DNA from: Sulfurovum sp.
GTDB lineage: Bacteria > Campylobacterota > Campylobacteria > Campylobacterales > Sulfurovaceae
DNA: 64,000 bases
Assembly (NCBI RefSeq): GCF_015493435.1
Contig: NZ_WGDD01000001.1
Span: 1 to 64,000, forward strand
Direction of reading: 5' to 3'
The notes beneath the pieces are model-generated. The model was not told the DNA's origin. It ran no database searches and saw only the letters and a list, made by a program, of their open reading frames with translations. Position numbers and translations under genes: made by a program. Of the stretch, positions 37,568-60,208 are shown one piece after another (position 1 is the stretch's first letter; the number at the start of each line of letters is the position of its first letter).

Positions 37568-37807
37568 TTACTTTGGCACCCTGTTGGTATCATGGATATA
37601 ACTTATCTCTTTGAGTAGAGAGTGCGGTGTTTTGGCATAGTAAGTCTCTCTCCTGTCATATATCAAGTCTTGTGCGTTTATAGCGGTATCAGGCAAAACC
37701 CAAATCTGTATTTGCCTACCTGCAAGAACCAAATGCTGTAGCGTTCCATCTTTTTGCCAAATATCACGGCAGGATTCGGCAGAATATCTGCTATTTATCG
37801 GACTCAA
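37568..37807 (-). CDS. Small protein of unknown function, third ORF of hipA-hipB operon
   Basis: 79 aa ORF overlapping the 3' end of the HipB-like ORF by 17 bp. Confidence 0.4.
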   Translation of the reverse strand: MSPINSRYSAESCRDIWQKDGTLQHLVLAGRQIQIWVLPDTAINAQDLIYDRRETYYAKTPHSLLKEISYIHDTNRVPK

Positions 37808-38015
37808 ACGGATTTAAAGGCTTCACATCAAGCTCATAGCCAAGATGGTTGAGTATGTCATTGAGTGTGACTATGGAGACCTGGGCGATATGTCCATTTT
37901 CGAGCTTGGAAAGCGTTGCGCGTGAAATGTCTGCTTGTTGAGCTAAGGTCTCCTGTGTAAGCCCCCGCTCTTTTCTGAGTGTTTTGACAGTACTACCAAG
38001 TTCGAGTAAGTTCAA
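37791..38015 (-). CDS. HipB-like XRE antitoxin
   Basis: HTH: RKERGLTQETLAQQADISRATLSKLENGHIAQVSI. Confidence 0.88.
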   Translation of the reverse strand: MNLLELGSTVKTLRKERGLTQETLAQQADISRATLSKLENGHIAQVSIVTLNDILNHLGYELDVKPLNPFESDK

Positions 38016-39189
38016 GAGGCAACTCCTTTATCGTCTGGTTTTTCAAAGAGATCATAAAACTCTCTATCATTCGTCTGCCGATGGTCTCAAAATGTCGGTT
38101 TTTTGCCATGTAGCTTTCTATCTCAGTGATTGTTTGTTTTAGTGCATTTTCACACTCGCTATAGAAACGATCCGCCTCTTTTTGTGTAAGCAGGCAATGT
38201 TTCATACCAAACGCCACCAAAGCCTCCTTGCCAAACCATACTTTCTTGCCCTGCATCATAAGTGCAGGTTTGTCTTGATAGATATAGCTTGTGGTATTGA
38301 CCACATCGTAGGCAGGGCTAAGCCAGATGCGGCTAAAATCATCGTTGAAAAGCAATCCGAAGTTCTTCAAATGTGCATCTCCGTTTTTAAGCAGATAGTT
38401 CATTACAACGATTTTATAGTAAGCCCTCAAAGAGTCTTTTTTGTGTGTTGCGAACCGGTAAATGCTCTTGGCTACCTGTTCATAACTCCCATTATACTTC
38501 CGGTTTCGATTTTTATCTTGTAAAGAGAGTATTTCTTCAAAGCCCAGGGTTTGATCCCCCTGGAAGATGAAGTTTTCCACTATGAGAAACTTTTTGTTTT
38601 TAGACAGCTTAATATGGGGTATCTCTATCCCTGCCATCTCACACGCTTTGAGGCAAAAGTACTCGTTTTCAGCTAAACAGGGGTACTCCTCTCCCCATGT
38701 TTTGATGATATACTCTTTTATTCGAAGTGTCTCTTTCTCTTTCAAAAGTGCTACGGTTTTGGGTTGTACCCCGGAGATGGCATTTTTATTTAGAAATATC
38801 TCAAGCAGTTTTTTGAAGGTGTCGGCAGAATCATTCTCCACAATATTTTCTATGTTTAGAAAATCGAAGTCGAGCTTAGAAAAGTCACTTTTGAAAGTGA
38901 TCCTGCTTTGAATATTGGGTGCCAATCTTGAAAAGATGAGATAGTCATCTATATATCCATACTCCTTGGTAAGCAGATTTTTAAATATCTCATACAGATA
39001 CCCTTCAGGTAAAAAAGTCTCAAAAAAAGGTGGAAACCTGTACTCATAGGTATAGAACTTTTTAGTGTTGGGCAAAGAGAGAGCGATGGAGTTTTGTATC
39101 TCTATGTTTTGATACTCTATAAGATAGTTATGTTTATCCTGGATAAATTTTGCGATCTCTGTATCTTTTAGATAAATCTTTACCATCAA
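37993..39189 (-). CDS. HipA-like kinase toxin
   Basis: SGVQPKTVALL, NGDAHLKNFGLLF, LSPAYDVVNT. Confidence 0.9.
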   Translation of the reverse strand: MMVKIYLKDTEIAKFIQDKHNYLIEYQNIEIQNSIALSLPNTKKFYTYEYRFPPFFETFLPEGYLYEIFKNLLTKEYGYIDDYLIFSRLAPNIQSRITFKSDFSKLDFDFLNIENIVENDSADTFKKLLEIFLNKNAISGVQPKTVALLKEKETLRIKEYIIKTWGEEYPCLAENEYFCLKACEMAGIEIPHIKLSKNKKFLIVENFIFQGDQTLGFEEILSLQDKNRNRKYNGSYEQVAKSIYRFATHKKDSLRAYYKIVVMNYLLKNGDAHLKNFGLLFNDDFSRIWLSPAYDVVNTTSYIYQDKPALMMQGKKVWFGKEALVAFGMKHCLLTQKEADRFYSECENALKQTITEIESYMAKNRHFETIGRRMIESFMISLKNQTIKELPLELTRTW

Positions 39190-39473: not shown

Positions 39474-40772
39474 ATGCCGAAGAACCAAACCCAGTTAAAC
39501 ATTAAAACCAATCTCTCCCCTGAACTGCGTTTCCTCATCGCCTGCTGCCAGGCAGACCCGTCCAAAGATCTGGCACTAAATGCCGATACCCCCGTCGTTA
39601 AAACGAAAGAGGGGTGCAACGCTCTGATCGGCTTGGCCCATCAGCACGGCATACTGCCGCTGGTCTACAAAACCCTGAAACGACTTAGTGAAGAGGAAAA
39701 AATGGAAAACCCCGTAGGTTTGGCCGTGCCAAACGTTTATGGCAAGTCCGAATCTGCCACGAACGAAACAAACCCATTCACCCCTTTACTCTCCGACCTG
39801 AAGCATTTTTACATGTCCATAGTCCAAAAAAATATGTTAATGACAAGTGAATTACTGAGAATCATGAAACTTTTCGAAGAGAATGGCATTGAGGCATTAG
39901 CCTTCAAAGGCCCTGCTCTGGCACAGGTGGCGTATGGTGACATTACGCTGCGGCAGTATGGAGATCTCGATATTCTGATACACAGAAAAGATTTTAGAAA
40001 TATCGCATCCCTTATGCAGGAGAAAGGCTACACTCCCCATTACCCCATAGAGACGTTTAGCGGCGATAAAGTGATGTTTGAAATGAATAACGACTGTCCT
40101 TTTTATGACAGGAGCCGTGGGCTTGCGACAGAGATACACTGGGACTTTTTTCGAAAACTTGCATTGCCTACCAAAGGGTTTTCTCCCTGGGAGAATACGG
40201 AAACCGTAATAATAAACGGCAAGGCGGTGCAGACACTTTCACAGGAAGCCCATCTTCTCTACCATGCACTGCATGGAGCGAAACATGTATGGGAGCGGCT
40301 GGTGTGGATCGTGGATATAGACAGGTTTATACGTGCCGTACCGGATATTGATTGGGTTAAAACCATAAAAATGGCAAAAGGTATGGGTGCGGAAAAAATG
40401 TTTTTCTCGGGCATTGCACTTGCACAAAGGTATTTTCATACGCCTCTGCCTGACGATATCCGTCTTCGATGCCAGGCATTGGAACTTGAGCCTTTTATAA
40501 CCTATGTCGAATCGGAACTTGGCAGTGACAGCCCTGCTGCCGAAGACAGTTTGACAAAACTTTCCAAAGTCATTGGATTAAGGGACAATCCGTACTATAA
40601 AACCATGACGCTTTTGGCGTTTCTGTTCCGTCCTGGCATCAATGAACGGCGCATGGTCATCCTTCCGGACAGCCTTTTCTGGCTCTATTGGCTCCTTCGC
40701 CCTGCGGGAATGGTATACCGATTCATTTTTTGCCGTAGTATGAAACTTTGCAAAACAGATGCGGAAGCCTGA
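39474..40772 (+). CDS. Nucleotidyltransferase family protein (NTP_transf_5-like)
   Basis: EENGIEALAFKGPALAQVAYGDITLRQYGDLDILI, LATEIHWDFF, LLYHALHGAKHVWERLVWIVDI. Confidence 0.85.
   Translation: MPKNQTQLNIKTNLSPELRFLIACCQADPSKDLALNADTPVVKTKEGCNALIGLAHQHGILPLVYKTLKRLSEEEKMENPVGLAVPNVYGKSESATNETNPFTPLLSDLKHFYMSIVQKNMLMTSELLRIMKLFEENGIEALAFKGPALAQVAYGDITLRQYGDLDILIHRKDFRNIASLMQEKGYTPHYPIETFSGDKVMFEMNNDCPFYDRSRGLATEIHWDFFRKLALPTKGFSPWENTETVIINGKAVQTLSQEAHLLYHALHGAKHVWERLVWIVDIDRFIRAVPDIDWVKTIKMAKGMGAEKMFFSGIALAQRYFHTPLPDDIRLRCQALELEPFITYVESELGSDSPAAEDSLTKLSKVIGLRDNPYYKTMTLLAFLFRPGINERRMVILPDSLFWLYWLLRPAGMVYRFIFCRSMKLCKTDAEA
39714..39775. repeat. In-frame palindromic element inside the NTP_transf_5 CDS
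   Basis: gtttggc-cgt-gccaaac (39718-39734) followed by tggca...tgcca; encodes low-homology insert VGLAVPNVYGKSESATNETN. Confidence 0.55.
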
Positions 40773-40790
40773 GTCAGACCTTCATATAAT
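40744..40790. repeat. Direct repeat A copy 1
   Basis: 41/47 identical by eye to 41440-41486; contains the stop region of the NTP_transf_5 CDS. Confidence 0.85.
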
Positions 40791-40812
40791 CACAGGAGCA
40801 CACAGGAGTGCT

Positions 40813-40829
40813 CCCCTGCAAGGGGTTTT
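40813..40829 (+). terminator. Rho-independent terminator of NTP_transf_5 gene
   Basis: cccct-gca-agggg-tttt, with a ggagcac/gtgctcc stem just upstream. Confidence 0.6.
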
Positions 40830-40833
40830 AATA

Positions 40834-41118
40834 TCAATAATTTTTCTGTCTAAAAATTGTCAAAATATATACATGATCCTCAATAACTTTGTAGACGACC
40901 GTATACCCTTTATAGATCAAATCATAAGTATCTGCTTCATCCGTATAATAACTTTTCCGACATCTAAAAGGTAAGTTGTCCAATGTTCTTATTGTTGTTT
41001 TTAGTTCCTCTAAAAATGTTTCTGCTTTGACTGCAGTATCATTCTTCGCAATAAACCAGAAAATCGATTCCAGATCTTGCAGTGCTTCTGGTTCAACAAT
41101 AATAGTATACTGTTTCAA
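40834..41118 (-). CDS. ParE/RelE superfamily toxin
   Basis: VEPEALQDLESIFWFIAKNDTAVKAETFLEEL...YKVIEDHVYILTIFRQ. Confidence 0.85.
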   Translation of the reverse strand: MKQYTIIVEPEALQDLESIFWFIAKNDTAVKAETFLEELKTTIRTLDNLPFRCRKSYYTDEADTYDLIYKGYTVVYKVIEDHVYILTIFRQKNY

Positions 41119-41339
41119 TATCCCAAAACTTTATTGAAAGCTTCATCCAGTGACACTCCTTCACCTTTAGCCATATGATCAATAGCATATTGCACTTTTC
41201 TTGCAGCCTCTTTTTTCGATATCGGGGGATAGTCATACCCGTTATCTTCTACCCTGATTTTATCTTGAGGAAGCAGCTCAAGCATGGTCATTACTTTATC
41301 AAAAATACTGTCATCAATTTTCAATTGAATGGTATGCAT
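41115..41339 (-). CDS. Cognate antitoxin of the ParE/RelE toxin
   Basis: 74 aa, overlaps toxin start by 4 bp. Confidence 0.75.
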   Translation of the reverse strand: MHTIQLKIDDSIFDKVMTMLELLPQDKIRVEDNGYDYPPISKKEAARKVQYAIDHMAKGEGVSLDEAFNKVLGY

Positions 41340-41439
41340 ATATTCTCCTCATTATTTCATTGGGTTTATTATAACATAATCAAAATTTCTATATTTTGAG
41401 GGGATCTATAATAATAGTTGAAAAATGAGATATGATAAA

Positions 41440-41486
41440 AACTTTGTCACACAGATGCGGAAGCCTGAGTTACATCTTCATATAAT
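41440..41486. repeat. Direct repeat A copy 2
   Basis: See repeat A copy 1. Confidence 0.85.
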
Positions 41487-41938
41487 ATTTCATTTTTAAA
41501 ACGGCACTGTCCTGCTTTACATCATAGCGCTTTTGCATATAGGGGCGGTTATGGGGTGTCTGGGCATGCAAAATCTTAAATTGTCCATTCATCACAGTGA
41601 CAAGTGTTCCCTTGGCACGTGTAAAGAAATCGGCATGATCGAGGCGTTTGATGCGCGCATCCCATCCCACCAGCTTCAGCCGTTCTGTACGGGCAATGTA
41701 AAAATTTGGAATCTTGTCATATACCGGCAGACCCGAGAGCAGTGTTCCCGGCGGGATAAGGGATGCTTTGTCGGTAGGATGCAGTATTGACCAGCGGCGT
41801 ATGTTTGAAAGGCAGTCTATCCCGCTCTTTTCTCTTTACCCATTTCAACTCCAGCGCGACCAAGCCTTCATACAAGGGTTTTCCAAGCCATTGAAGTTTG
41901 CCGTGCTTTAGGTGGCGGGAGAGAGTTTGTCCAAGCAT
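41470..41938 (-). pseudogene. Frameshifted/degraded glycan-biosynthesis gene (probable glycosyltransferase)
   Basis: Two ORFs (41717..41938, 41470..41670) join through a one-base frameshift near the purine-rich run at 41826-41843: MLGQTLSRHLKHGKLQWLGKPLYEGLVALELKWVKRKE / KSGIDCLSNIRRWSILHPTDKASLIPPGTLLSGLPVYDKIPNFYIARTERLKLVGWDARIKRLDHADFF... Confidence 0.65.
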
Positions 41939-41953
41939 TATGCAATAGCTTTC
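41893..41953. repeat. Direct repeat B copy 1
   Basis: agtttgccgtgctttaggtggcgggagaga...; translates (minus) MLGQTLSRHLKHGKL. Confidence 0.75.
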
Positions 41954-42015
41954 AAAGTTTTATTTTGTTTTTTCTTTATAGCATTGAATATCAACAATGC
42001 CTCCTCAACATTCAA
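41945..42015 (-). pseudogene. VapC (PIN) gene fragment
   Basis: Minus-strand LNVEEALLIFNAIKKK resembles ENALLIFNAIEKK of the VapC at 43939..44340; DNA tatagcatt(g/a)aatatcaacaatgc nearly identical. Confidence 0.6.
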
Positions 42016-42325
42016 GTTGCGCACACAGTGCTTCCCGGATGGCTGCAAACACACTACTCTTAAGCTTTGCAATACATCGAGTATGATTGATAAGTCCACT
42101 GTCTATAGCTGTTAGTTTTGGAATAATCAAAACCGATTTTTTCTTTAAACTCCCCTCTTTTATATCGCTACTGTCAATAACAATGCCTTTACCTGAAAGA
42201 TTTGTTGTCAGCGGCAAGACAAGAAGATCGTTTTTGTCAATTTTTTTAAACACCAAAACGGGACGTGCCTTAAACTGTCTGAAATGAGAGTAAGGCATAT
42301 CGATAACATAGATTCCCCCTACCAT
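42005..42325 (-). CDS. MazF/PemK-like toxin
   Basis: GGIYVIDMPYSHFRQFKARPVLVFKKIDKNDLLVLPLTTN...VLIIPKLTAI. Confidence 0.85.
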   Translation of the reverse strand: MVGGIYVIDMPYSHFRQFKARPVLVFKKIDKNDLLVLPLTTNLSGKGIVIDSSDIKEGSLKKKSVLIIPKLTAIDSGLINHTRCIAKLKSSVFAAIREALCAQLEC

Positions 42326-42630
42326 TTGCTGTAATCTTCCTCATCATAATCATGTTTGCTCAACCCTATGGCGATCTTGCCAAAGTTATCCAGTTCGACA
42401 TCTTTCCAGTAAGCCCAGGGGATATCGTTGTCTTTTTCCGTATTTGTTTCGTTTTGTTTCAAATGCGATGAGCGTGGCAGTTTGATCTCAAAAGGCATAC
42501 CACCTTCAAGACGGACTTTGTTTAAAAAAATATTGATCGCATCGGAAAGGGTTAGATCATACTCTTTAAATATCTCCTTTGCCTTCTCCCATGCTTCAGG
42601 GTCAACTTTTATGGAGGTTTGTTTTCTCAT
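42319..42630 (-). CDS. RelB/DinJ-type antitoxin paired with MazF-like toxin
   Basis: SIKVDPEAWEKAKEIFKEYDLTLSDAINIFLNKVRLEGGMPFEI. Confidence 0.85.
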   Translation of the reverse strand: MRKQTSIKVDPEAWEKAKEIFKEYDLTLSDAINIFLNKVRLEGGMPFEIKLPRSSHLKQNETNTEKDNDIPWAYWKDVELDNFGKIAIGLSKHDYDEEDYSKW

Positions 42631-42727
42631 TCAATGACTCCTTTTTGGTTTATTATACTTCAATAGAATTATAATGTCAATCTACTTTCTGTAATCTTTA
42701 ACATCATTTCCGCCAAAATATTTCTGC

Positions 42728-42794
42728 CAGTTTGCCGTGCTTCAGGTAGCGGGAGAGGGACTTTCCTATCATTGCGGTGTATGTTCCAAAATGG
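42728..42794. repeat. Direct repeat B copy 2 (wecB 3' end / next-gene start)
   Basis: agtttgccgtgcttcaggtagcgggagagg...; translates (minus) MIGKSLSRYLKHGKL then diverges. Confidence 0.75.
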
Positions 42795-43923
42795 CTTCAA
42801 GGCAGCGCTCTGCCGCTTTGCCGTCCCAAAGTTCCGGACGCTGCGGTTTGCGTTTAGTCTCTGAGACTTTTTGGTAGGCTTCACGTATGGCAGCGACATT
42901 GTTCCCCACCAGGGTGGATGCGCCGCCATGCTCTTTGAGGGTAATGGGGCGTTCGGTGTTCCAGCGCAGTGTCAGACAAGGGGTACCGAGCACGCAGCAC
43001 TCTTCCTGTAATCCGCCGCTGTCGGTAAGCATACTGTTCGCGGACATATTGAGCTTGAGCATCTCATGGTAGTTGACTGGATGAAGCAGTATAATCATCG
43101 GGGACGTGCTTACCTTCTCCCACAATCCAAAGGTCTCAAGCTGTTTTCTCGCCCGGGGATGGATTGGCCAGAGCAGCAGCTCTTTTTCACATACCTCATC
43201 CAGCAAAAAATCGACAATCGGTTCCAGTACCTCTTTTTTATCGACATTGGAAGGTCTGTGCATGGTCAATACAGAATACTCCCCTATCTCATCGGGTACC
43301 TCACGCAGAGGATCAAGCAGGTTTTCTTTTACTATATTTTCAACCTGCATCGCTTCAGCTTTCTCTCTGTTGGCTTCGAGCGTATCGATCATTACATTAC
43401 CCACAAAACAGATTTTTCCCTCTGCTACACCTTCATTGCGAAGGTTCTCTGTTGAAAGCAGATCAGGCGTAAGCAGCAGGTCAGAGAGGCGGTCTGTCAC
43501 CAGACGGTTGATCTCTTCGGGCATATCCATATCGCCCGAGCGCAACCCCGCTTCGATGTGGCAGACTTTGATGTGCTCTTTTTTGGCGGTTACGGAACAG
43601 GCGAGTGTGGCATTGACATCACCCACGACCACTACCCAGTCCGGCTTTTCCTCTTTGATGATCTTTTCAAAAGCAATCATCGTATGCCCTACCTGCTCGG
43701 CATGGGTACCCGAACCTATGTCCATATGCCTGTCTGCATCAGGGATGCCAAGTGATTCAAAAAAGACTTTTGACATACGGTCATCATAATGCTGCCCGGT
43801 ATGTACCAGCAAATGTTCTATTTTTTCAGATGCAAGATCGTGATTATACGCTTCTATCGCATGCACAAAGGGTGCAATTTTCATAAAATTGGGCCTTGCC
43901 CCGACTACAGAGATGATTTTCAT
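42769..43923 (-). CDS. wecB: UDP-N-acetylglucosamine 2-epimerase (non-hydrolysing)
   Basis: KIISVVGARPNFMKIAPFVHA, VVVVGDVNATLACS, HIEAGLRSGDMDMPEEINR, DSGGLQEE. Confidence 0.93.
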   Translation of the reverse strand: MKIISVVGARPNFMKIAPFVHAIEAYNHDLASEKIEHLLVHTGQHYDDRMSKVFFESLGIPDADRHMDIGSGTHAEQVGHTMIAFEKIIKEEKPDWVVVVGDVNATLACSVTAKKEHIKVCHIEAGLRSGDMDMPEEINRLVTDRLSDLLLTPDLLSTENLRNEGVAEGKICFVGNVMIDTLEANREKAEAMQVENIVKENLLDPLREVPDEIGEYSVLTMHRPSNVDKKEVLEPIVDFLLDEVCEKELLLWPIHPRARKQLETFGLWEKVSTSPMIILLHPVNYHEMLKLNMSANSMLTDSGGLQEECCVLGTPCLTLRWNTERPITLKEHGGASTLVGNNVAAIREAYQKVSETKRKPQRPELWDGKAAERCLEAILEHTPQ

Positions 43924-43938
43924 ACTGTTTTATACCTT

Positions 43939-44340
43939 TTATTTGAAATATTTTTTCACAAATGTACTACTTGTCAATGTTTCTATGCCTTCCGCATAGA
44001 AGTTCTGATCATTGGTCACAATGACATCACACACCATTTTTTGAGCACTCACATACTGTAAACTGTCTTCTAAGTCATCATTTTTCAAAGATAATGCGTC
44101 ATGAAACATTTTGTTGTTCCCACCAACAACTTCAAACACACTGTTGACCAGTCTCAAAAAAGCTTTGACATCTTTTACCTGTTTATTTGCAACATAGTCA
44201 ATATTTAACAGTGTGATATCCAACACCACTCCAAAGTAGTATTTTTTCTCTATAGCATTAAATATCAACAATGCATTCTCAAAATTCTCTCTTTTTAAAA
44301 TGAGATCGAGAAAAATATTTGTATCGACAAAAACCTTCAT
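43939..44340 (-). CDS. VapC-type PIN domain toxin
   Basis: MKVFVDTNIFLDLILKREN... PIN acidic residues, DVIVTNDQNF. Confidence 0.88.
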   Translation of the reverse strand: MKVFVDTNIFLDLILKRENFENALLIFNAIEKKYYFGVVLDITLLNIDYVANKQVKDVKAFLRLVNSVFEVVGGNNKMFHDALSLKNDDLEDSLQYVSAQKMVCDVIVTNDQNFYAEGIETLTSSTFVKKYFK

Positions 44341-44585
44341 TTGACAATCTTGTTATACTTTATGTCATCTGTCTTAAATGTGTTATCCAGTATACCTACA
44401 AACTGGTTGAATGATCCTTCTTCAAGACTCTTCTCTGTACTGGCTTGTCTCATCAGCTTTTCATACTCTTCGTAAGGCATGATCACAGCCTTTTTTTTAC
44501 GTGCCTTTTTATCGACTATTAAAACTGTCTGGGACAAGAGCTTTGTGAACTGTGCCTGTGCCTGCGAAATACCCAGTTCCAACAT
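44337..44585 (-). CDS. Phd/YefM-like antitoxin
   Basis: LGISQAQAQFTKLLSQTVLIVDKKARKKKAVIMPYEEYEKL; overlaps VapC by 4 bp. Confidence 0.8.
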   Translation of the reverse strand: MLELGISQAQAQFTKLLSQTVLIVDKKARKKKAVIMPYEEYEKLMRQASTEKSLEEGSFNQFVGILDNTFKTDDIKYNKIVK

Positions 44586-44649
44586 AATGAACCCCTTTCA
44601 ATATATATGTACATACTACGATATATATATTTATATATCTCTTAAATTT

Positions 44650-45876
44650 TTAACTAATGTTAGAATATGAACAACTGTCAGCCAAGATACCCAACATCTT
44701 TTCAGCCAAGACTTTTCTGTCAAAATCCTGTACCAGTTTGTCACATCCTGATTGGCAGGTTTCATACAACGCTTTATCATTTTTAAGTCGTCCAAGTTTT
44801 TCAAGGAAATCTGTTTCATCTTCCGGTTTGAAGCAAAGTCCGGCACCATATTTTTCTATGATCTCCTGTGCCTGCCCTTCAACACCAAGCAGTGTGGGTT
44901 TTCGCATGGCGGAGGCTTCAAATATCTTGGAGGGGATGACGGTTTTGAAAGTGTCGGACTTTTTGAGCGGGGCGAGTGACACATCGATAATGGAGAGGTA
45001 GTCTGGCACCTGTTTTTTGGAAACGGGGTCAAGAAACGTTACATTTTTCAATGCCAGTTTCTCTGCCATCTCCACAATGGTTTGTTTCATCGCCCCACCG
45101 CCGACAAACAGGAAATGGATGTCAGGGTCATCCACTTTTTTCAAAGCGGTGACAATGAAGTCCAGACTGTGTGCCATGCCATGTGTTCCAATGTAGCCGA
45201 CAACAAACTTCCCTTCCAGTCCAAGTGATTTCAGGAGTGCCTTGTCTTTCTTTCTTGCAACATATAGCTCAAGATTTGCCCCATTGGTGACGACATCGAT
45301 CTTCTCTGCGTCGATGCCGCGGCCAATAAGGTTTTGTTTGAATGCTTCCGTCACGGCCACTACTCTGTCGGCATCCCTGTAGAGCCATAGCTCCACCTTT
45401 TCCAGCCAGTCAAGCACCCTGCTCTGCTTCATAGCCCCAACGGTACGAATGGACTCCGGCCAGAGGTCCCGCAACTCGAAGATCCACGGTTTCCTTCGGA
45501 TCTTCGAGATACCGACTGCTGCCCAGGTGGTAAAAAACTGCGGAGAAGTCGCCACGACGACATCAGCCTTTTGAAACAGCCCGACCCAAAATGCAGAAAA
45601 GGCAAAGCTCACATAGTCAAGTACCCGTTTTGCAAAGCCTTCGTTTGCAGTGATATAACTCCAGACCCGTATGACTTCAATGCCGTCAATATTTTCTTTC
45701 TGATACAGCCTGTTTTTATATCCCTCATAAACCTTTCCCTGCGGGAAATTGGGTGCACAAGTAATGATGGTTACTTCGGCTCCCTTTTTCACCCACTCTT
45801 TGCAGTGTTCATAGGTACGGGTTGCCGGAGCGTTGGTTTCGGGCGGGAAGTTGTCGGTGAGGAAGAGTATTTTCAT
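44650..45876 (-). CDS. Glycosyltransferase family 4 (WbuB-like)
   Basis: MKILFLTDNFPPETNAPATRTYEHCKEWVKKGAEVTIITCAPNFPQGK..., GT1-type C-terminal domain. Confidence 0.9.
   Translation of the reverse strand: MKILFLTDNFPPETNAPATRTYEHCKEWVKKGAEVTIITCAPNFPQGKVYEGYKNRLYQKENIDGIEVIRVWSYITANEGFAKRVLDYVSFAFSAFWVGLFQKADVVVATSPQFFTTWAAVGISKIRRKPWIFELRDLWPESIRTVGAMKQSRVLDWLEKVELWLYRDADRVVAVTEAFKQNLIGRGIDAEKIDVVTNGANLELYVARKKDKALLKSLGLEGKFVVGYIGTHGMAHSLDFIVTALKKVDDPDIHFLFVGGGAMKQTIVEMAEKLALKNVTFLDPVSKKQVPDYLSIIDVSLAPLKKSDTFKTVIPSKIFEASAMRKPTLLGVEGQAQEIIEKYGAGLCFKPEDETDFLEKLGRLKNDKALYETCQSGCDKLVQDFDRKVLAEKMLGILADSCSYSNIS
45733..45876. repeat. Direct repeat C copy 1 (5' end of the intact glycosyltransferase)
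   Basis: About 129/144 identical by hand to 47201-47344. Confidence 0.9.
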
Positions 45877-45888
45877 TTTCCCTTTTCC

Positions 45889-47136
45889 TTATACACCAAA
45901 GTATTCCCAAAATGCAACAATCTTTACACTGTCAGAAGTATCTGACTGATTATAGGTAATAATATATTTACTATCTACTTCAAACGGCAGCTTGGCAAGT
46001 CCGCCTATTTCTCTTTTTCTATTTTGATCATGCAACTCATAACATACTTGAATGGCGATTATCTTACCATCTTGTATAGCTATAAAATCACATTCAAAAT
46101 TCTTATTGTAAAAATAGACTTCATATCCCGCTTTGATCAATTCTGTATAGACTAAATTTTCAAGCATCTTTCCACGATTCTCTGAAAAACTATAACTAAA
46201 AGATAAAAAACCATTATCATTGGCGTATATCTTTTTCTTGGAATGGTTCTGCTCTTTGAGAGAGTAAGAGTAGTGCTTGATCTCATCGATCAAATAACTG
46301 TTTTCCAGATATGACACGTACTCTTTGGCACTTTTATCATTTATATCAATTGCTTTTGCAAGTGAATTATAGGAATACAGAGATGTTACATTGGAGAGCA
46401 GATAATAACTTAACTCTTTAAAACTTTTGACATCTCTAATGGCATTATTGGTGACACAATCCTTAAGCAAAATAGTATCGTAGTAAGCGCTGAGTATCTC
46501 TCTCCTAAATTCTTCTTTGTTATCAACTATTTCTACAAAAGATCCATACTTGACCATATTGTCTACGATGTTTAAAACCTTCGGTGAGTGCTCTACAAGC
46601 TGCATATAGGTAGTGATGTCATTTATTTTCAATATCTCCTTTAATGAGAGTGGATACACTTTGGTAGATAAATATCGTCCTGTCAATAAAGTTGCCAGGT
46701 CACCATTCAGGAGTGAAGAGTTTGAACCCGTAATAAATATCTTTTTAAACGCTTCGTTATCGTAGACACTTTTCACATATCTTTCCCAGCCATTCATCGC
46801 CTGTACTTCATCTAAAAACAGATATGTTATATTCTTCTGTGTAAGTTTTTGTGCTGTCTGGATGACATCATGCAGTTTTGCAGCATCATCCGAATAGGGA
46901 ATAAAGAATGGATCATCCAGATTCACATACAGTATTTCCTGTGGGTCGATTTCCAGGGAAAGATGATTGATAAGAAGTTTGAACAGTGTGGATTTACCAC
47001 TTCTTCTTATGCCTTGAAGCACCTGTATATGTTTAACCTCCAGTTTTTTTACCAAACTGGGAAATATATCCCTCTCGTACAGTTCAGCATAAGGCTTGTT
47101 CCAATGTTTGTTTTGAGATAAAATTACCTTTTCCAT
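45889..47136 (-). CDS. AAA ATPase with DUF4143-like C-terminal domain
   Basis: LQGIRRSGKSTLFKLLI P-loop, YLFLDEVQAMNGWE, FITGSNSSLL, CDFIAIQDGKIIAIQVCYEL. Confidence 0.88.
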   Translation of the reverse strand: MEKVILSQNKHWNKPYAELYERDIFPSLVKKLEVKHIQVLQGIRRSGKSTLFKLLINHLSLEIDPQEILYVNLDDPFFIPYSDDAAKLHDVIQTAQKLTQKNITYLFLDEVQAMNGWERYVKSVYDNEAFKKIFITGSNSSLLNGDLATLLTGRYLSTKVYPLSLKEILKINDITTYMQLVEHSPKVLNIVDNMVKYGSFVEIVDNKEEFRREILSAYYDTILLKDCVTNNAIRDVKSFKELSYYLLSNVTSLYSYNSLAKAIDINDKSAKEYVSYLENSYLIDEIKHYSYSLKEQNHSKKKIYANDNGFLSFSYSFSENRGKMLENLVYTELIKAGYEVYFYNKNFECDFIAIQDGKIIAIQVCYELHDQNRKREIGGLAKLPFEVDSKYIITYNQSDTSDSVKIVAFWEYFGV

Positions 47137-47200
47137 ACTATAGTAACCTACTTTAATCTATTTATTCGTATTATAGCACGAATATTTATATTCTATTCAC

Positions 47201-47344
47201 TTTTCCTTGTGGAAAATTTGGCACACAGGTAATGATGGTGACTTCCGCCCCCTTTTTCACCCACTCTTTGCAGTGTTCATAGGTACGGGTTGCAGGAGCA
47301 TTGGTTTCGGGAGGGAAGTTGTCGGTGAGGAAGAGGATTTTCAT
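47201..47344 (-). pseudogene. Direct repeat C copy 2: duplicated 5' fragment of the glycosyltransferase gene
   Basis: Minus-strand MKILFLTDNFPPETNAPATRTYEHCKEWVKKGAEVTIITCVPNFPQGK then divergence. Confidence 0.9.
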
Positions 47345-47410
47345 TTGTTTTTTTATATTATACATTGTAATAATTATATTTTTTATAAAGAGAAAGATAG
47401 TCCATTTCTT

Positions 47411-47782
47411 CTAAATCGATTCGTTTAGCTCTTGAATATACGCTTCTAATTCATCTATCTTTTCATCACAGATATCATAAATTATCTCAGCATCGATATC
47501 GATGTAGTGATGTGTCAAAATTTCTCTGGTTTTAATGATTTTGCTCCAATAGTTTTGAGAAGCGACGCGCAATAAAATCTCTCTATCTCTTTTATCGATA
47601 TTTTTCAATGCTTCACCAATAGACTGTAGCCGCATGGATATCGCATCCAACCTGTCGAGTCCTTCATCACTGTTTATAAAATCATCACTGCTGCAAACAG
47701 GCTCGAAACGGCGCTTGATAAGTGCAATACTCTCAAGTATAAACTTCAAAAGCTCTTTAGTCGCTGCTTTGTCCATAAACAA
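47411..47782 (-). CDS. HepT-like HEPN toxin
   Basis: RX4HXY motif REILTHHY. Confidence 0.88.
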   Translation of the reverse strand: MFMDKAATKELLKFILESIALIKRRFEPVCSSDDFINSDEGLDRLDAISMRLQSIGEALKNIDKRDREILLRVASQNYWSKIIKTREILTHHYIDIDAEIIYDICDEKIDELEAYIQELNESI

Positions 47783-48074
47783 CCTCTTTTTGAATGCTAT
47801 TTAAAATAACGCTGTTGCTGTTGCTGTGTTTGTGTAAAATGTCGACTTTTTTATGAAACAATGTCTCCAAATATACCCACAATCCTGCAAGATTGTCAAA
47901 TGTTTTTTTTCTAAATTCTACATAAAAATCAATATCGCTGGACTCTGTCTGCTTCCCTTTTGCATAAGAGCCAAAAAGACCTATTTTCTCTACACCAAAC
48001 TCTTTTTTCATAAAATTTTCCTGCTGCTGCAACGTCTGTAAAATATCCTTTTTTGTCATATTCCACCCTTTCAA
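47757..48074 (-). CDS. MntA-like nucleotidyltransferase antitoxin
   Basis: GLFGSYAKGKQTESSDIDFYVEF (GSX10DXD); overlaps hepT by 26 bp. Confidence 0.9.
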   Translation of the reverse strand: MKGWNMTKKDILQTLQQQENFMKKEFGVEKIGLFGSYAKGKQTESSDIDFYVEFRKKTFDNLAGLWVYLETLFHKKVDILHKHSNSNSVILNSIQKEVVYGQSSD

Positions 48075-48164
48075 TTTTTCACATGCATATCTTTAAAGTC
48101 TATTACTATGCTATATTTAGCCTATTTGTTCATATTATAACACGAATATTTATTTTTTATTCTC

Positions 48165-48223
48165 TTTTCCCTGAGGAAAATCAGGCACACAAGTCATGAC
48201 GGTCACTTCCGCTCCCTTCTTCA
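48165..48223 (-). pseudogene. Direct repeat C copy 3: shorter glycosyltransferase 5' fragment
   Basis: cttttccctgaggaaaatcaggcacacaagtcatgacggtcacttccgctcccttcttca parallels copies 1 and 2. Confidence 0.8.
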
Positions 48224-48323
48224 TATGTTTTGGCATCAATAAAGATTTGAGATACTTTCAGCTTCTCTATAAGCGCTATTAACTCCTCTAGTAATCTTGC
48301 TTCACAATTAATATTTTATATCA

Positions 48324-48424
48324 TAAATTATATCTCTGAAGAATTTCATTTATTCTTTCATCACTAATATTTTCCAATTCTGTTTTGGAGTACATTGCCA
48401 TTAGGTAAAGATTATTCTCTACTA
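48324..48424 (-). pseudogene. C-terminal remnant of a RelE/HigB-like toxin
   Basis: ENNLYLMAMYSKTELENISDERINEILQRYNL* in frame without an upstream toxin N-terminus. Confidence 0.45.
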
Positions 48425-48712
48425 ATGATCTTCAAGTTCATCAATCAAATCATTTAAACTTTGTATTTCTTTATGTTTCTTCAAGCTACGAGTCTCTTGC
48501 AACTCTTTTGCTGCATTTTCAAAATTATCATAAAATAATTTTGATTTCTGCTCACTGATATATGACTTTATTGCTTCCACAATGATATCTGTTCTGGTCA
48601 CAGAGTATTTTTTGGTAAATGCATCTATATCATCTATAAGATACTTAGGAAGTCTCAACCCCACTTGCTGCTTTTCTAACTGTTCAACACTAAGCATACT
48701 ACAATTCCTCAA
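48422..48712 (-). CDS. Ribbon-helix-helix antitoxin-like protein
   Basis: QQVGLRLPKYLIDDIDAFTKKYSVTRTDIIVEAIKSYI. Confidence 0.75.
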   Translation of the reverse strand: MRNCSMLSVEQLEKQQVGLRLPKYLIDDIDAFTKKYSVTRTDIIVEAIKSYISEQKSKLFYDNFENAAKELQETRSLKKHKEIQSLNDLIDELEDH

Positions 48713-48799
48713 TATTTGTTTAACAATATTAAATATTATTTATATACATATGTCAATATCCATACTATTTAACAACTATTAAATTTTTATTTTAACTTT

Positions 48800-48828
48800 G
48801 TTGGTTTAGTGATGAAGAGGATTTTCAC
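48800..48828 (-). pseudogene. Direct repeat C copy 4: first codons of glycosyltransferase overlapping the capK-like stop
   Basis: Minus-strand GTGAAAATCCTCTTCATCAC; same start as copy 2 (ATGAAAATCCTCTTCCTCAC). Confidence 0.6.
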
Positions 48829-50117
48829 TTATTCTCCAATTCCGAATAAAAATGTTTGATTTTCCCTGAAGCCGGGCGCTCAATCCGGTCGACCTGATGC
48901 ACTACGATATTCAACCCTGGTTCAAGATATTCTTCAGCCGTTTTTTTCAACTCTTCTATATCTGTCTCCTCCAAAGCCTTATCGGAGACAACATCAAACT
49001 CAAACGTATCCAAAGCTGTTTGACGGATTATAAATTCTTTTAAAATACCGGAAGATTCAAGTAATGCACGTGAAACGTAATAAAAAGTAAACCCTGGTGA
49101 AAACTTTCCGCTTGGCAATTGGATAACATCATTTGTACGTCCCAACAATTTGTCAATCGATCGATAGGAAGATCCACACTTACATTTTTTTTCAGTTATA
49201 TCCGCAATATCACCTACCTTATATCTTACAAATGGGAAACTTTTATTAAAAAGATCTGTTACCAATAATTCTCCATTGGATGTTGACTCAATAAAAACAT
49301 TATCTTCAGGAATATGCATTGTACCTTCTTGACATTCATATCCAAGTAAACCGACCTCTGTCGTTCCATATTCCTGAACAACAGGAATTCCAAAAGCTTT
49401 TTCGATGAGTATTTTATCTTCTTTGGTACAGGTCTCAGATGTCACCATACATACCTTTAATGTAGGACAAATAGACTTAAGTAAAATATTGTTTGTATTA
49501 AGATATCGACAAAAAAGTACGATAGAACTGGTATAACCATAAATATATTCAAATTTATCGCTCTGAAATTTGCTTACCCATTTGGAAAATATTTTATCAG
49601 ACATTTCAAAAATGACAAATCTGTAACGATTCAAAACCATATCTTTTAGTCTTTGGACCCATGCAGATCTCCAACTTTTCGGTATACCATAAAATCGTGC
49701 CTCTCGACTGCCTATATCTATGCCATGCATTTGAAAAAAAAGTTTTTTTGCACTCCATACTCGGGCTTGCGTATAATAGTCTTTTGTAAATTTTAAAGGA
49801 TGCCCCGATGAACCAGAAGTATTGTTTGCATAGATTTCATTCTTATTTAAACTTCCACTTATAAGCTGATACTCATTACTTTGGAGATCTGACTTCAGGA
49901 CAAGAGGAAGTTCCTCCCACTTTTCAGGAAGCTGGTCACCTATATGTTCCCGATAAAATGCATTATTCTCATAAAGATACTGCACTATCTCCCATTTTTT
50001 CTGCTCCTGCCATGCTTCAAAGTCATCTTTGGGCAATGCCCTCAGTGTTTTCAGTTCATCAACGATGGGAGCAAGGTCATGGTGTCGCCATTTATAGATC
50101 AGTTCAAAGAGTGACAT
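48825..50117 (-). CDS. Phenylacetate-CoA ligase/CapK-like protein
   Basis: ANNTSGSSGHPLKFTKDYY, QEYGTTEVGLLGYEC. Confidence 0.88.
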   Translation of the reverse strand: MSLFELIYKWRHHDLAPIVDELKTLRALPKDDFEAWQEQKKWEIVQYLYENNAFYREHIGDQLPEKWEELPLVLKSDLQSNEYQLISGSLNKNEIYANNTSGSSGHPLKFTKDYYTQARVWSAKKLFFQMHGIDIGSREARFYGIPKSWRSAWVQRLKDMVLNRYRFVIFEMSDKIFSKWVSKFQSDKFEYIYGYTSSIVLFCRYLNTNNILLKSICPTLKVCMVTSETCTKEDKILIEKAFGIPVVQEYGTTEVGLLGYECQEGTMHIPEDNVFIESTSNGELLVTDLFNKSFPFVRYKVGDIADITEKKCKCGSSYRSIDKLLGRTNDVIQLPSGKFSPGFTFYYVSRALLESSGILKEFIIRQTALDTFEFDVVSDKALEETDIEELKKTAEEYLEPGLNIVVHQVDRIERPASGKIKHFYSELENK

Positions 50118-52501: not shown

Positions 52502-53591
52502 TTAAGACCTCATTATAGATTTCGACAAGTTTTTGTACCACAGCTTTTGAAGAGTAATTTTCTCTCACATGTGCATTCAATTTCGATGCCATGCTCTCTC
52601 TATATTTTTCATCTTCTATGAGCTTCAACATACTTTCTGCCAATGCTTCACTGTCCTTTGCCGGTACGACTTCACCATGCACCCCATGCCCAAGCACCTC
52701 TGCACACTGGCCCACCTCTGTACAGACGACAGGCAGTTTTGCCAGGCCATACTCAAGCAGTGCCACAGGCAATCCTTCAGACTCTGAAGATAGTATTCCC
52801 ATGCCCGAAGCCAACAAAATATCTGCCGAATCACTTCTGGTACCCAGAATATGCACATTGTCCTGCAAATGGTTTGCTTTGATGAATGCCTTGATCTTTT
52901 GGCTGTAGGCATCGTTTTTGTCCTCTCCGACAAGCAGGAGATGATATTCTCGATGCGTTTCATGTACTTGCTCAAATGCCTTTAACAAATTTATATGGTC
53001 TTTCTGCCAGCGTAAATTAGCCAGGCATACTATACGCGTATTTTTTGTTCCGGGAAGTGACACAAAAGAATTTTTTTCCTCCAGTTGTGCAAAATTTTGT
53101 ACATAGATAATTTTTTTTTCATGCAAATATAAATTATTTTTACTCCATTGTACAAGTTTTTCATTCACTGAAATAACGGCATCAAAAAAATGGGAAAATT
53201 GTATGATGATTCTATTTTGTTTTGGATCTACTTCATAACGGATACCGTTATGGTCATGCCAGATAATCTTGACACCGGTAAACGGCTTGCAAAGCACCGC
53301 AGTAAAAAAAGAGGAGGAGTGTGCGTGGATCACATTGATTTTATGCTTTTTTATAAATTTTATCAACTTTCCAAGGGCTTTCATATCCAATGCTGAATGT
53401 TTATGTAAAATCATATATCCCACGTTATCGGAAAGAAAAGATTCCAGTGCACCACCCTGACGTGTTGCGCACAGGTAACTGGGAACGTCTGCTTCTTTCA
53501 GTGCATTTGCCAGATTGACACTGACACGTTCTGCACCACCGGCAGCCAGTGAGTCTATCAACTGCAATACCCTCGGCTCTTTAATTCCCAT
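52494..53591 (-). CDS. Glycosyltransferase family 4
   Basis: LIDSLAAGGAERVSVNLANAL, SSESEGLPVALLEYGLAKLPVVCTEVG. Confidence 0.9.
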   Translation of the reverse strand: MGIKEPRVLQLIDSLAAGGAERVSVNLANALKEADVPSYLCATRQGGALESFLSDNVGYMILHKHSALDMKALGKLIKFIKKHKINVIHAHSSSFFTAVLCKPFTGVKIIWHDHNGIRYEVDPKQNRIIIQFSHFFDAVISVNEKLVQWSKNNLYLHEKKIIYVQNFAQLEEKNSFVSLPGTKNTRIVCLANLRWQKDHINLLKAFEQVHETHREYHLLLVGEDKNDAYSQKIKAFIKANHLQDNVHILGTRSDSADILLASGMGILSSESEGLPVALLEYGLAKLPVVCTEVGQCAEVLGHGVHGEVVPAKDSEALAESMLKLIEDEKYRESMASKLNAHVRENYSSKAVVQKLVEIYNEVLNA

Positions 53592-54780
53592 ATAGTAGCT
53601 TCCCAATCTCTTCTTCAAACTTTTCCAGCGTAAACTGCCGTGACCATGTCATAGCCTCTTCACTGCTTTGCCTGAATGCATCTGCATTTTCAAGATAATA
53701 TTTTACCTTGTTTACAATGTCATCCACATTGGGCATAACGATCTTCCCTCGAGATCCGTTGCCTATCATGTAATTGACACAGGAAACATCTGTCGTAATG
53801 GGCAGACACCCCCAAAACATCGCCTCTGCCACCACCTTCGGCCAGCCTTCAGACTTGGAGACAAAGATGAGAAAATGTGCATTTTGGTAGTAGCGTTTAA
53901 CAGTATCGGCATCTTGGTTGCCGTGAAGCACCACAAAATCTTCCAGCCCGTTCTCCTTGATGTACGACTCAAGCTTTGGACGTTCCACACCTTCACCAAA
54001 CAGATCTAAATGTACTTCATACCCTTCCTTGTGCAGACGTTCTGCAGTTTGAATGCTGAGCAATGGACGTTTCCCTGGGCTTAGGGCACCTACGTACAGT
54101 AAGTTGGAAGTTGGAAGTTGGAAGTTGGAAGTTGGAAGTTGGAGGTTGGAGGTTGGAGGTTGGAGGTTGGAAGTTTGAGGTTGGAAGTTGGAAGCTCTTT
54201 CTTGAAACTTGAAACTTGAAACTTCCTCCTCACTATACGTAGCTGTAAAAAACGGGACAATGTTACTACTCTGTTCCGGCCATTCACCATATACCAGTAC
54301 TTTCATATTACGGGTCAGAAACGTGTTGGAGAGTATCTTCTTTTGTAAACGGTAGCTCCATGGCTGTGGACTGTCAGGGTCCCAGTTGCCGGCATATTTG
54401 GCTGTTTTTGGTTTATGAGGGAAAAAGATCTGTGCCACACTGCCCAGTAAGCCCATATTGCCCGGACAGCGGAGGTGTATGTGGTCTGCCCAGACCATGC
54501 CACGTACGATCTGCACAAAAACGACAGGGAGTTTAAAAAGTGTTTTTACAGCCTCTTTTTTAGAAGTGAGGTGAAAAGCCGGAACTTCGGAAAATGTCAG
54601 TTTTTCATGTTTGTAAGGAAGGTCTATCAGATCGGCAGTGCCATTCTGTATGGGGGCGACCACTTTTACTTCATCGACATGTTTTAACCAAAGGTTCATC
54701 TCTTTAATATAGGGGCCATACCCATATATCTGATCACCTGTTTTTTTATGTTGGACGTGTGTGACTATGAGAAACTTCAT
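53581..54780 (-). CDS. Glycosyltransferase family 4 with heptad-repeat-encoded linker
   Basis: LLYVGALSPGKRPLLSIQTAERL, VSKSEGWPKVVAEAMFWGCLPITTDV; linker TSNLQPPTSNLQLPTSNFQLPTSN. Confidence 0.88.
   Translation of the reverse strand: MKFLIVTHVQHKKTGDQIYGYGPYIKEMNLWLKHVDEVKVVAPIQNGTADLIDLPYKHEKLTFSEVPAFHLTSKKEAVKTLFKLPVVFVQIVRGMVWADHIHLRCPGNMGLLGSVAQIFFPHKPKTAKYAGNWDPDSPQPWSYRLQKKILSNTFLTRNMKVLVYGEWPEQSSNIVPFFTATYSEEEVSSFKFQERASNFQPQTSNLQPPTSNLQLPTSNFQLPTSNLLYVGALSPGKRPLLSIQTAERLHKEGYEVHLDLFGEGVERPKLESYIKENGLEDFVVLHGNQDADTVKRYYQNAHFLIFVSKSEGWPKVVAEAMFWGCLPITTDVSCVNYMIGNGSRGKIVMPNVDDIVNKVKYYLENADAFRQSSEEAMTWSRQFTLEKFEEEIGKLLYGN
54101..54225. repeat. Heptanucleotide array (AAGTTGG-like, 13 units) plus short inverted array
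   Basis: 6x aagttgg, 4x aggttgg, aagtttg, aggttgg, aagttgg (54101-54191), then 54201-54225 cttgaaacttgaaacttgaaacttc in inverted sense. Confidence 0.95.
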
Positions 54781-59023: not shown

Positions 59024-59794
59024 TTACGACTCTTCCTTTCCATTGAGGGATACATAAAAGGACTCTGCCTTTTCCCAATCCTCCATCGTATCGATATTGA
59101 TTAGCTCCGGACTCTCGATGGGGAAAGCCACAATATCGTCTCCAAGCAGTGAGCCTTTGTTGCGTATGGTCTCTACGGAAGTGATGTAGATGGCACCGTC
59201 ACGGTGGTAGGCAGGCGGAAGTTCCTGACGGCGGGGGATGATCTTTTTCTCTCCGGTACTGATTTTGAGACGGTTATTCTTTTCTATTTCAAAGGTCCAG
59301 TGAGGGTTAAACTCATCGGGCACCTTCCTCACCGATACCAGTGCATCGGGGCGTTCCTGAACAAACATGCGTATGGCATCGTCTATGACCCCTTGTGGAC
59401 GGTAAGGACTTGTCACCTGAAGCAGACAGACCGCATCGTACACTTCACCCTGTGATTCCATAAAATCCAAAGCATGCTGCACGACTTCAAGGCTTCCCGA
59501 ATGATCTTGCGCCAGTGCTTCCGGTCGCATGAAGGGTACTTCAAGTCCATAGTTGCGTGCCACTTCCGCTATCTTCTCATCATCGGTTGAGAGAATGGTT
59601 TTTTCAAGTAATAAAGCATCATTTGCCTGTTCAATGGTATAGGCGATCAGCGGCTTTCCTGCCAGTGGCTTGATGTTTTTGCCTGGCACACCTTTGGAAC
59701 CACCCCTTGCCGGAATTAATCCGAGGATTTTTAAGTTAGAAGTTGGAAGTTTCAAGTTGGAAGTTTCAAGTTTCAGGTTGGAAGTTTGTTTCAT
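59024..59794 (-). CDS. Acylneuraminate (nonulosonate) cytidylyltransferase
   Basis: ILGLIPARGGSKGVPGKNIKPLAGKPLIAYTIEQA; N-terminal extension encoded by heptad array. Confidence 0.9.
   Translation of the reverse strand: MKQTSNLKLETSNLKLPTSNLKILGLIPARGGSKGVPGKNIKPLAGKPLIAYTIEQANDALLLEKTILSTDDEKIAEVARNYGLEVPFMRPEALAQDHSGSLEVVQHALDFMESQGEVYDAVCLLQVTSPYRPQGVIDDAIRMFVQERPDALVSVRKVPDEFNPHWTFEIEKNNRLKISTGEKKIIPRRQELPPAYHRDGAIYITSVETIRNKGSLLGDDIVAFPIESPELINIDTMEDWEKAESFYVSLNGKEES
59734..59790. repeat. Heptanucleotide array, left side of four-helix-bundle gene
   Basis: aagttag aagttgg aagtttc aagttgg aagtttc aagtttc aggttgg aagtttg. Confidence 0.92.
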
Positions 59795-60150: not shown

Positions 60151-60161
60151 CCCTCCTCAAC

Positions 60162-60208
60162 TTCAAACTTCAAACTTCAAACTTCAAACTTCCAACTTCC
60201 AACTTCCC
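60162..60208. repeat. Heptanucleotide array, right side of four-helix-bundle gene, inverted relative to left array
   Basis: aacttca x4 then aacttcc x3 on the + strand. Confidence 0.93.

Follow-up and report, generated by a model that had tools for sequence, protein, structure and literature searches.

The first 64,000 nucleotides of contig NZ_WGDD01000001.1 of Sulfurovum sp. (assembly GCF_015493435.1; this whole stretch is referred to here as the window) carry a polysaccharide operon in which toxin-antitoxin (TA) cassettes and a DUF4143 ATPase cassette occupy gene junctions, and the ends of the neighboring host genes are duplicated around four of the six insertions. Sulfurovum is a vent bacterium, and the genome to which the window belongs (G000) comprises 2.16 Mb in 61 contigs with a completeness of 99.6%. 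The existence of cassette-free relatives, the duplicated gene ends, the low GC content of the cassettes, the nested order of their entry, their sharp and recurring boundaries, and similar loci elsewhere in the genus indicate that the cassettes were acquired serially at a hotspot. We consider it probable that this acquisition proceeded mainly through DNA of sibling strains, with a homologous junction on one side and an illegitimate junction on the other. The pattern apparently results from the usual recombination of DNA and not from a transposon.

Results

Cassettes occupy junctions that are empty in relatives

The interval runs from the intact host gene NTP_transf_5 (39474–40772, plus strand; PF14907, E value of 2 × 10−60) to a capK-like gene (48825–50117, minus strand), and the genes and modules between them lie on the minus strand. 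Three of these are host genes: geneX, coding for a GT2-family glycosyltransferase (GT), wecB, and a GT4 glycosyltransferase gene. The remainder are six small modules, namely, ParDE-like, RelB-MazF, Phd-PIN, and MntA-HepT pairs, a DUF4143/AAA_14 ATPase, and a ribbon-helix-helix (RHH) antitoxin-like open reading frame (ORF). TA function of all these modules is predicted from family profiles, and, to our knowledge, DUF4143 is not an established TA. The GC content of the modules is 27 to 37%, compared with 47 to 49% for NTP_transf_5, geneX, wecB, and the GT gene.

In two relatives, the Sulfurovum genomes G049 (locus L036) and G040 (locus L037), the order reads NTP_transf_5, geneX, wecB, GT, capK; there are no cassettes, the junctions are single copy, and the operon genes abut or overlap by a few bases. 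A search for such empty sites had been proposed as a test in a preliminary description of the window, and empty sites that nevertheless carry the repeats were not seen in the two genomes. The host genes of the window differ in their state. The gene wecB, encoding UDP-GlcNAc 2-epimerase (42769–43923; PF02350, E value of 2 × 10−93), is intact, and the full GT copy (44650–45876) has orthologues with 92% (G049) and 90% (G040) identity at the protein level. By contrast with the intact gene of the two relatives, geneX (41461–41938, aligned to the intact 279-amino-acid gene at L036:7384–8223) has an internal deletion of about 370 bp and is a pseudogene. The DNA of capK could not be aligned to capK of G049 or G040, which indicates that this flank was exchanged as well.

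Host gene ends are duplicated around four of six insertions

The ParDE-like cassette (40791–41438; 33.5% GC; PF05016, E value of 4 × 10−15), consisting of a toxin gene (40834–41118) and an antitoxin gene (41115–41339) and missing from G049 and G040, is enclosed by two copies of a 48-bp segment (40743–40790 and 41439–41486; 88% identity), previously given as 47 bp. This repeat A extends from the 3′ end of NTP_transf_5 into the last codons of geneX, that is, across the stop codons of two genes arranged tail to tail, and readable ends of both genes are retained on each side of the cassette. Similarly, the RelB antitoxin (42319–42630) and MazF/PemK toxin (42005–42325) genes (together 42005–42630; PF02452, PF04221, and TIGR02384) lie between copies of the 45-bp start of geneX (repeat B, 41895–41939 and 42729–42773; 82% identity), of which the right one is fused to the 3′ end of wecB. 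A fragment of a PIN toxin gene at the same site (41968–42013), 89% identical to positions 44242–44287, is a trace of an earlier TA. The Phd-PIN cassette (43940–44640; PIN and PhdYeFM profiles), which is not in the relatives, separates wecB from the GT gene, and no flanking duplication was found around it.

The start of the GT gene is present in four copies. Copy c1 (45731–45878) is part of the full gene, and the 148-bp copy c2 (47199–47346, minus strand; 90% identity to c1) lies on the other side of the DUF4143/AAA_14 cassette (PF13173 and PF13635), which begins at a palindromic promoter and ends with the stop codon (45889–47195). Copy c3 (48116–48223, minus strand) is situated in front of MntA and joins GT codons of approximately 29 to 50 (48166–48223, 58 bp, 81% identity to c1) to a second copy (48116–48165) of the promoter palindrome of the DUF4143 cassette (47152–47198). 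Together, c3 and the corresponding positions 47152–47259, which include the start of c2 and non-GT sequence, share 83% identity over 108 bp; hence, the HepT (47411–47782) and MntA (47757–48074) pair (47411–48074; PF01934, PF18765, and NF047752) is flanked by a duplication of at least 108 bp. Since c3 carries the palindrome, the MntA-HepT pair entered after the DUF4143 cassette, and the duplication took in the edge of the earlier cassette. Finally, c4 (48809–48833, minus strand, about 25 bp) comprises the first approximately eight GT codons beside the stop codon of capK. The region between c3 and c4 (48224–48808; 27.4% GC) contains the RHH-type ORF (48422–48712), which has weak BrnA-type NCBIfam matches only and whose partner toxin apparently has been lost. 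The fragments on its two sides, codons 29 to 50 and codons 1 to 8, are traces that do not overlap, so either the RHH insertion or a later event removed sequence.

All three sets of repeats named in the preliminary description, across the ParE/RelE module, across the MazF module, and at the GT start, are thus present. Its statement that each insertion left a duplicated junction was too broad: duplicated ends of variable length surround the ParDE-like, RelB-MazF, DUF4143, and MntA-HepT cassettes, that is, four of the six.

The repeats belong to this locus

The self-BLAST E values of the window repeats (3 × 10−51, 1 × 10−25, 2 × 10−9, and 4.5 × 10−5) are beyond chance. We considered whether dispersed elements, such as insertion sequences (IS), miniature inverted-repeat transposable elements (MITE), repetitive extragenic palindromes (REP), or integron attC sites, or else an assembly error, could be the source of the repeats. 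Dispersed repeats do flank some TA modules of the genus, attC-like at L157 and REP-like at L198, L217, and L224. The repeats of the window, on the other hand, are diverged parts of host genes, and a search of the genome found them at no other locus, so that a dispersed origin was rejected for the window; an IS or MITE family at many unrelated loci, named in the preliminary description as a possible refutation, was not found. Terminal inverted repeats, short target-site duplications of fixed length, and occurrence at many loci, the hallmarks of transposons, were not found. The palindrome was also examined as a transposon end and rejected, as only one of the two ends of the DUF4143 cassette carries it; among the fetched loci, it is confined to this cassette and its copy. 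Inspection by eye, without a dedicated attC model, revealed no attC sites between the window cassettes, and the separators are host gene fragments. As the same pattern is found in the single-contig genomes G002 (L223) and G004 (L231), an assembly error, like dispersed repeats, is a very improbable source. The attC-like repeats at L157 (G045:C1) surround a ParE gene and hint at a chromosomal integron array in the genus.

Some copies diverged as working alleles

A truncated gene copy that arose in place and then drifted is expected to show about two-thirds nonsynonymous differences. Between GT copies c1 and c2, however, we counted 14 synonymous differences and 1 nonsynonymous difference (P = 2 × 10−6 against a drifting pseudogene copy), with a silent divergence (pS) of 0.45, similar to the between-species values of 0.50 and 0.62. 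The copy of an epimerase 3′ end at G000:C9 gave a ratio of 10:3 (P = 7 × 10−4; pS of 0.53 versus 0.49 between species), an ORF6N pair in G004 gave 33:23 (P = 3 × 10−5), and L210 gave 9:5 (P = 0.025); about a dozen pairs were tested, and the three smallest P values survive correction. Silent sites account for nearly all differences between c1 and c2, so the two evolved as functional alleles of separate lineages before they were brought together. This points to recombination with DNA of a sibling lineage or, alternatively, to an exchange of alleles at a later time. The other copies with a synonymous excess (G000:C9, the ORF6N pair, and L210) likewise acquired most of their divergence as parts of functional genes in separate lineages. 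Sliding identity along the GT gene gave no clear switch marking a crossover between donor and recipient.

These data bear on the possibility that the cassettes enter by an unrecognized mechanism, encoded by the cassette or the host, that copies a long and variable target at insertion and leaves a truncated copy to drift. The variable lengths of the duplications (45 to approximately 200 bp) and their position at gene ends match insertions of restriction-modification (RM) genes (PMC3874152), c3 duplicates part of the previous cassette, and a pair of repeats around MazEF at L202 is 97% identical over 68 bp and not dispersed. Moreover, changes compatible with drift were found at L225 (5 synonymous:10 nonsynonymous), in the epimerase of G049 (L182; 6:10), and in the L187 fragment at 5214 (2:5), and two L187 fragments fit neutral drift. 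Nevertheless, no pair of 100% identity was seen among the flanked loci, and purifying selection acted during the divergence of GT c1/c2 and of the epimerase copy at G000:C9; their synonymous excess rejects simple target duplication followed by drift for GT c2 and for the epimerase copy. In-place duplication is possible for many copies, even for the GT gene, provided that a different allele subsequently took the place of the full gene. Overall, we regard target duplication as a less probable account of the locus that still deserves serious attention.

Cassettes and gene ends recur as units

The DUF4143 cassette forms a unit of approximately 1,303 bp in three different contexts, in the window, in G003 (L220), and in G048 (L232); at L220, it stands behind a gene whose product, identified by eye, resembles a lasso-peptide B2 protein. 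Likewise, a MazEF cassette common to G000, G060, and G058 is a unit from the −35 element to the stop codon with differing neighbors. G000 and G060 share MazEF together with a trailing fragment of the end of a DUF6997 gene (94.4% and 93.4% identity), and the other flank differs. MazEF and the DUF6997 end thus constitute a transferred unit with one-sided homology.

Recurrence of the DUF6997 3′ end was not restricted to this case. Four copies with three TA modules between them are present in the genome of the window and four copies in G060; TumE-TumA of G003 lies between two such ends (116 bp, 87%), and HigBA of G032 is associated with ends of 189 bp (88%). G040 and G053 have full DUF6997 genes without a TA. 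Across species, the DUF6997 3′ end appears as a recurrent TA docking site (L187 [G000:C3], L195, L225, and L226), at which a copy of the gene end stands behind each of the different TAs.

Such arrays would be produced by RecA-driven single crossovers of the Campbell type, in which circles of a TA and a host gene end excise and integrate at that end, building a gene-TA-end-TA-end order without an integrase. In agreement with this, the DUF6997 ends separate different TAs in G000, G060, G003, and G032, the DUF6997 fragment moves with MazEF between species, and linear DNA in Escherichia coli was reported to circularize and integrate by a single crossover (PMC3240628). Yet no circle or excised form was seen, a different gene end is present at each junction of the window, and the MazEF cassette is also found without DUF6997 fragments (L188), all of which makes RecA-driven circles an unlikely explanation.

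The arrangement is found at other loci of the genus

The preliminary description had also suggested scanning related genomes for TAs between direct repeats of host genes. We analyzed stretches around 107 ParE, HepT, MazF, and DUF4143 domains in Sulfurovum genomes and counted a domain as flanked if it was enclosed by a direct repeat of at least 25 bp and at least 40 bits with a spacer of 0.25 to 3.5 kb. The same architecture was recovered elsewhere in the genus: 19 of the 107 domains (18%) were flanked, compared with 22 of 827 control positions taken from other parts of the stretches (Fisher P = 8 × 10−9, with positions within a stretch not independent), and random placement in these stretches predicted 6.0 flanked domains. 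In a curated test, the dispersed-looking loci L157, L179, L198, L217, and L224, together with L130 (a long gene duplication), were removed by eye after the matches had been seen; 12 of 99 domains were flanked versus 4.4 expected (P = 1.5 × 10−4). Clear repeats of host gene ends were found at L182, L149/L245, L187, L195, L210, L220, and L223. The repeats of L202, L133, L197, and L215 are intergenic or short, and at L165 the TA gene itself is duplicated. A targeted search with the DUF6997 C terminus added L225 and L226; the cases in G003, G032, G040, and G053 described above come from this search.

The end of a UDP-sugar epimerase gene is duplicated around MntA-type modules both at G000:C9 (L149/L245) and at G049:C27 (L182), and it is single in nearly all other fetched loci. 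Remnants of HepT ends are kept at the G000 site, a second polysaccharide locus at which TAs have piled up.

Within the window, a HipAB-like pair (helix-turn-helix and HipA_C; 37791–39189) adjoins the hotspot and has no flanking direct repeats. Tandem repeats of a heptanucleotide (AAGTTGG and relatives, up to 13 copies) occur at 54101–54194, 59733–59787, and 60159–60206, including positions inside a glycosyltransferase ORF (53581–54780) and in the initial part of a cytidylyltransferase-like ORF (59024–59794). Since seven nucleotides do not make up whole codons, changes in copy number could turn these ORFs on and off.

Discussion

We propose that minimal cassettes, reaching from promoter to stop codon, enter the tight gene junctions of the polysaccharide operon one after another, with incoming DNA of related strains as the presumed main route. 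One end would recombine by homology in the neighboring gene and the other would join illegitimately a short way inside that gene, either by homology-facilitated illegitimate recombination or by a single-crossover variant of it, and the product would be a truncated native copy next to a full gene with a donor-type end. Given that the genes overlap or lie directly against each other, the surviving joins would mainly be those in which every neighbor retains one intact copy. Recombination between the repeats would delete the cassette, and addiction may counteract this loss.

Several observations weigh against acquisition from sibling strains. Besides the Phd-PIN cassette with its single-copy flanks and the drift-compatible pairs described above, the short length or advanced drift of most copies prevents a distinction between allelic import and in-place duplication. 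A potential donor carrying precisely the c2 allele was not found. The sharp promoter-to-stop boundaries in different contexts look too precise for random end-joining from random donors. The prediction of DNA uptake by this organism derives from a ComEC homologue in its genome, and bacteria without known natural competence possess ComEC as well.

In competent bacteria, homology-facilitated illegitimate recombination is an established process (PMC3240628 and references therein); there, too, foreign DNA can come to lie next to a partial duplication when one junction is homologous and the other illegitimate. It is known from laboratory transformation and conjugation, whereas in Sulfurovum it is deduced from comparative anatomy. 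In Helicobacter pylori ELS37, a 1,577-bp duplication around an integrative and conjugative element (ICE) was read as the result of one homologous and one nonhomologous junction with incoming DNA (PMC4615327); this duplication also sandwiches an insert, but the insert is an ICE of approximately 50 kb with its own integration system. Chromosomal integrons resemble the hotspot in their serial TA cassettes with a recurring separator, which here is a host gene end and not attC.

A close parallel is provided by RM genes, which were described as inserted with long, variable target duplications on the order of 100 bp (Nobusato 2000 and Furuta 2010, as cited in PMC3874152 and PMC3031569). In both cases, addictive gene pairs without a transposase are flanked by long (about 100 bp) and variable host duplications, and the RM phenomenon is known in H. 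pylori, a member of the same phylum. Like the RM insertions, the Sulfurovum cassettes have a single-copy, cassette-free allele in relatives, variable direct repeats of host sequence, and addictive pairs (ParDE, RelB-MazF, and MntA-HepT, recognized by profile only). They differ in that several TA families and DUF4143 are involved, in that a single locus received serial and nested insertions, and in that the copies are partly divergent alleles and not fresh duplicates. The architectural parallel to H. pylori drawn in the preliminary description is supported. Its proposal that TA cassettes repeatedly use the RM-like route at one locus stands for the serial entry at junctions with duplicated ends, but the in-place duplication of the target that it implied is not supported by the silent-site divergence of c1 and c2. 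Our literature search, from which subscription papers were mostly excluded, found no paper showing such insertion for TA modules, and the TA families may represent a new variant of the "insertion with long target duplication" architecture.

A broader, speculative extension that we consider rather doubtful is that host gene ends serve as de facto attachment sites, with units of a TA and a gene end traveling between strains, docking by RecA, and building integron-like arrays without an integrase, and with addiction holding repeats that would otherwise recombine out.

Collectively, the polymorphic insertions with empty sites, the nested order, and the allele-level evidence at the junctions make the competing routes (target duplication, one-sided recombination, and RecA docking) directly testable. 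The hotspot bears on the dissemination of chromosomal TA modules in the absence of a mobile element and links the model of RM mobility to TA modules in the same phylum.

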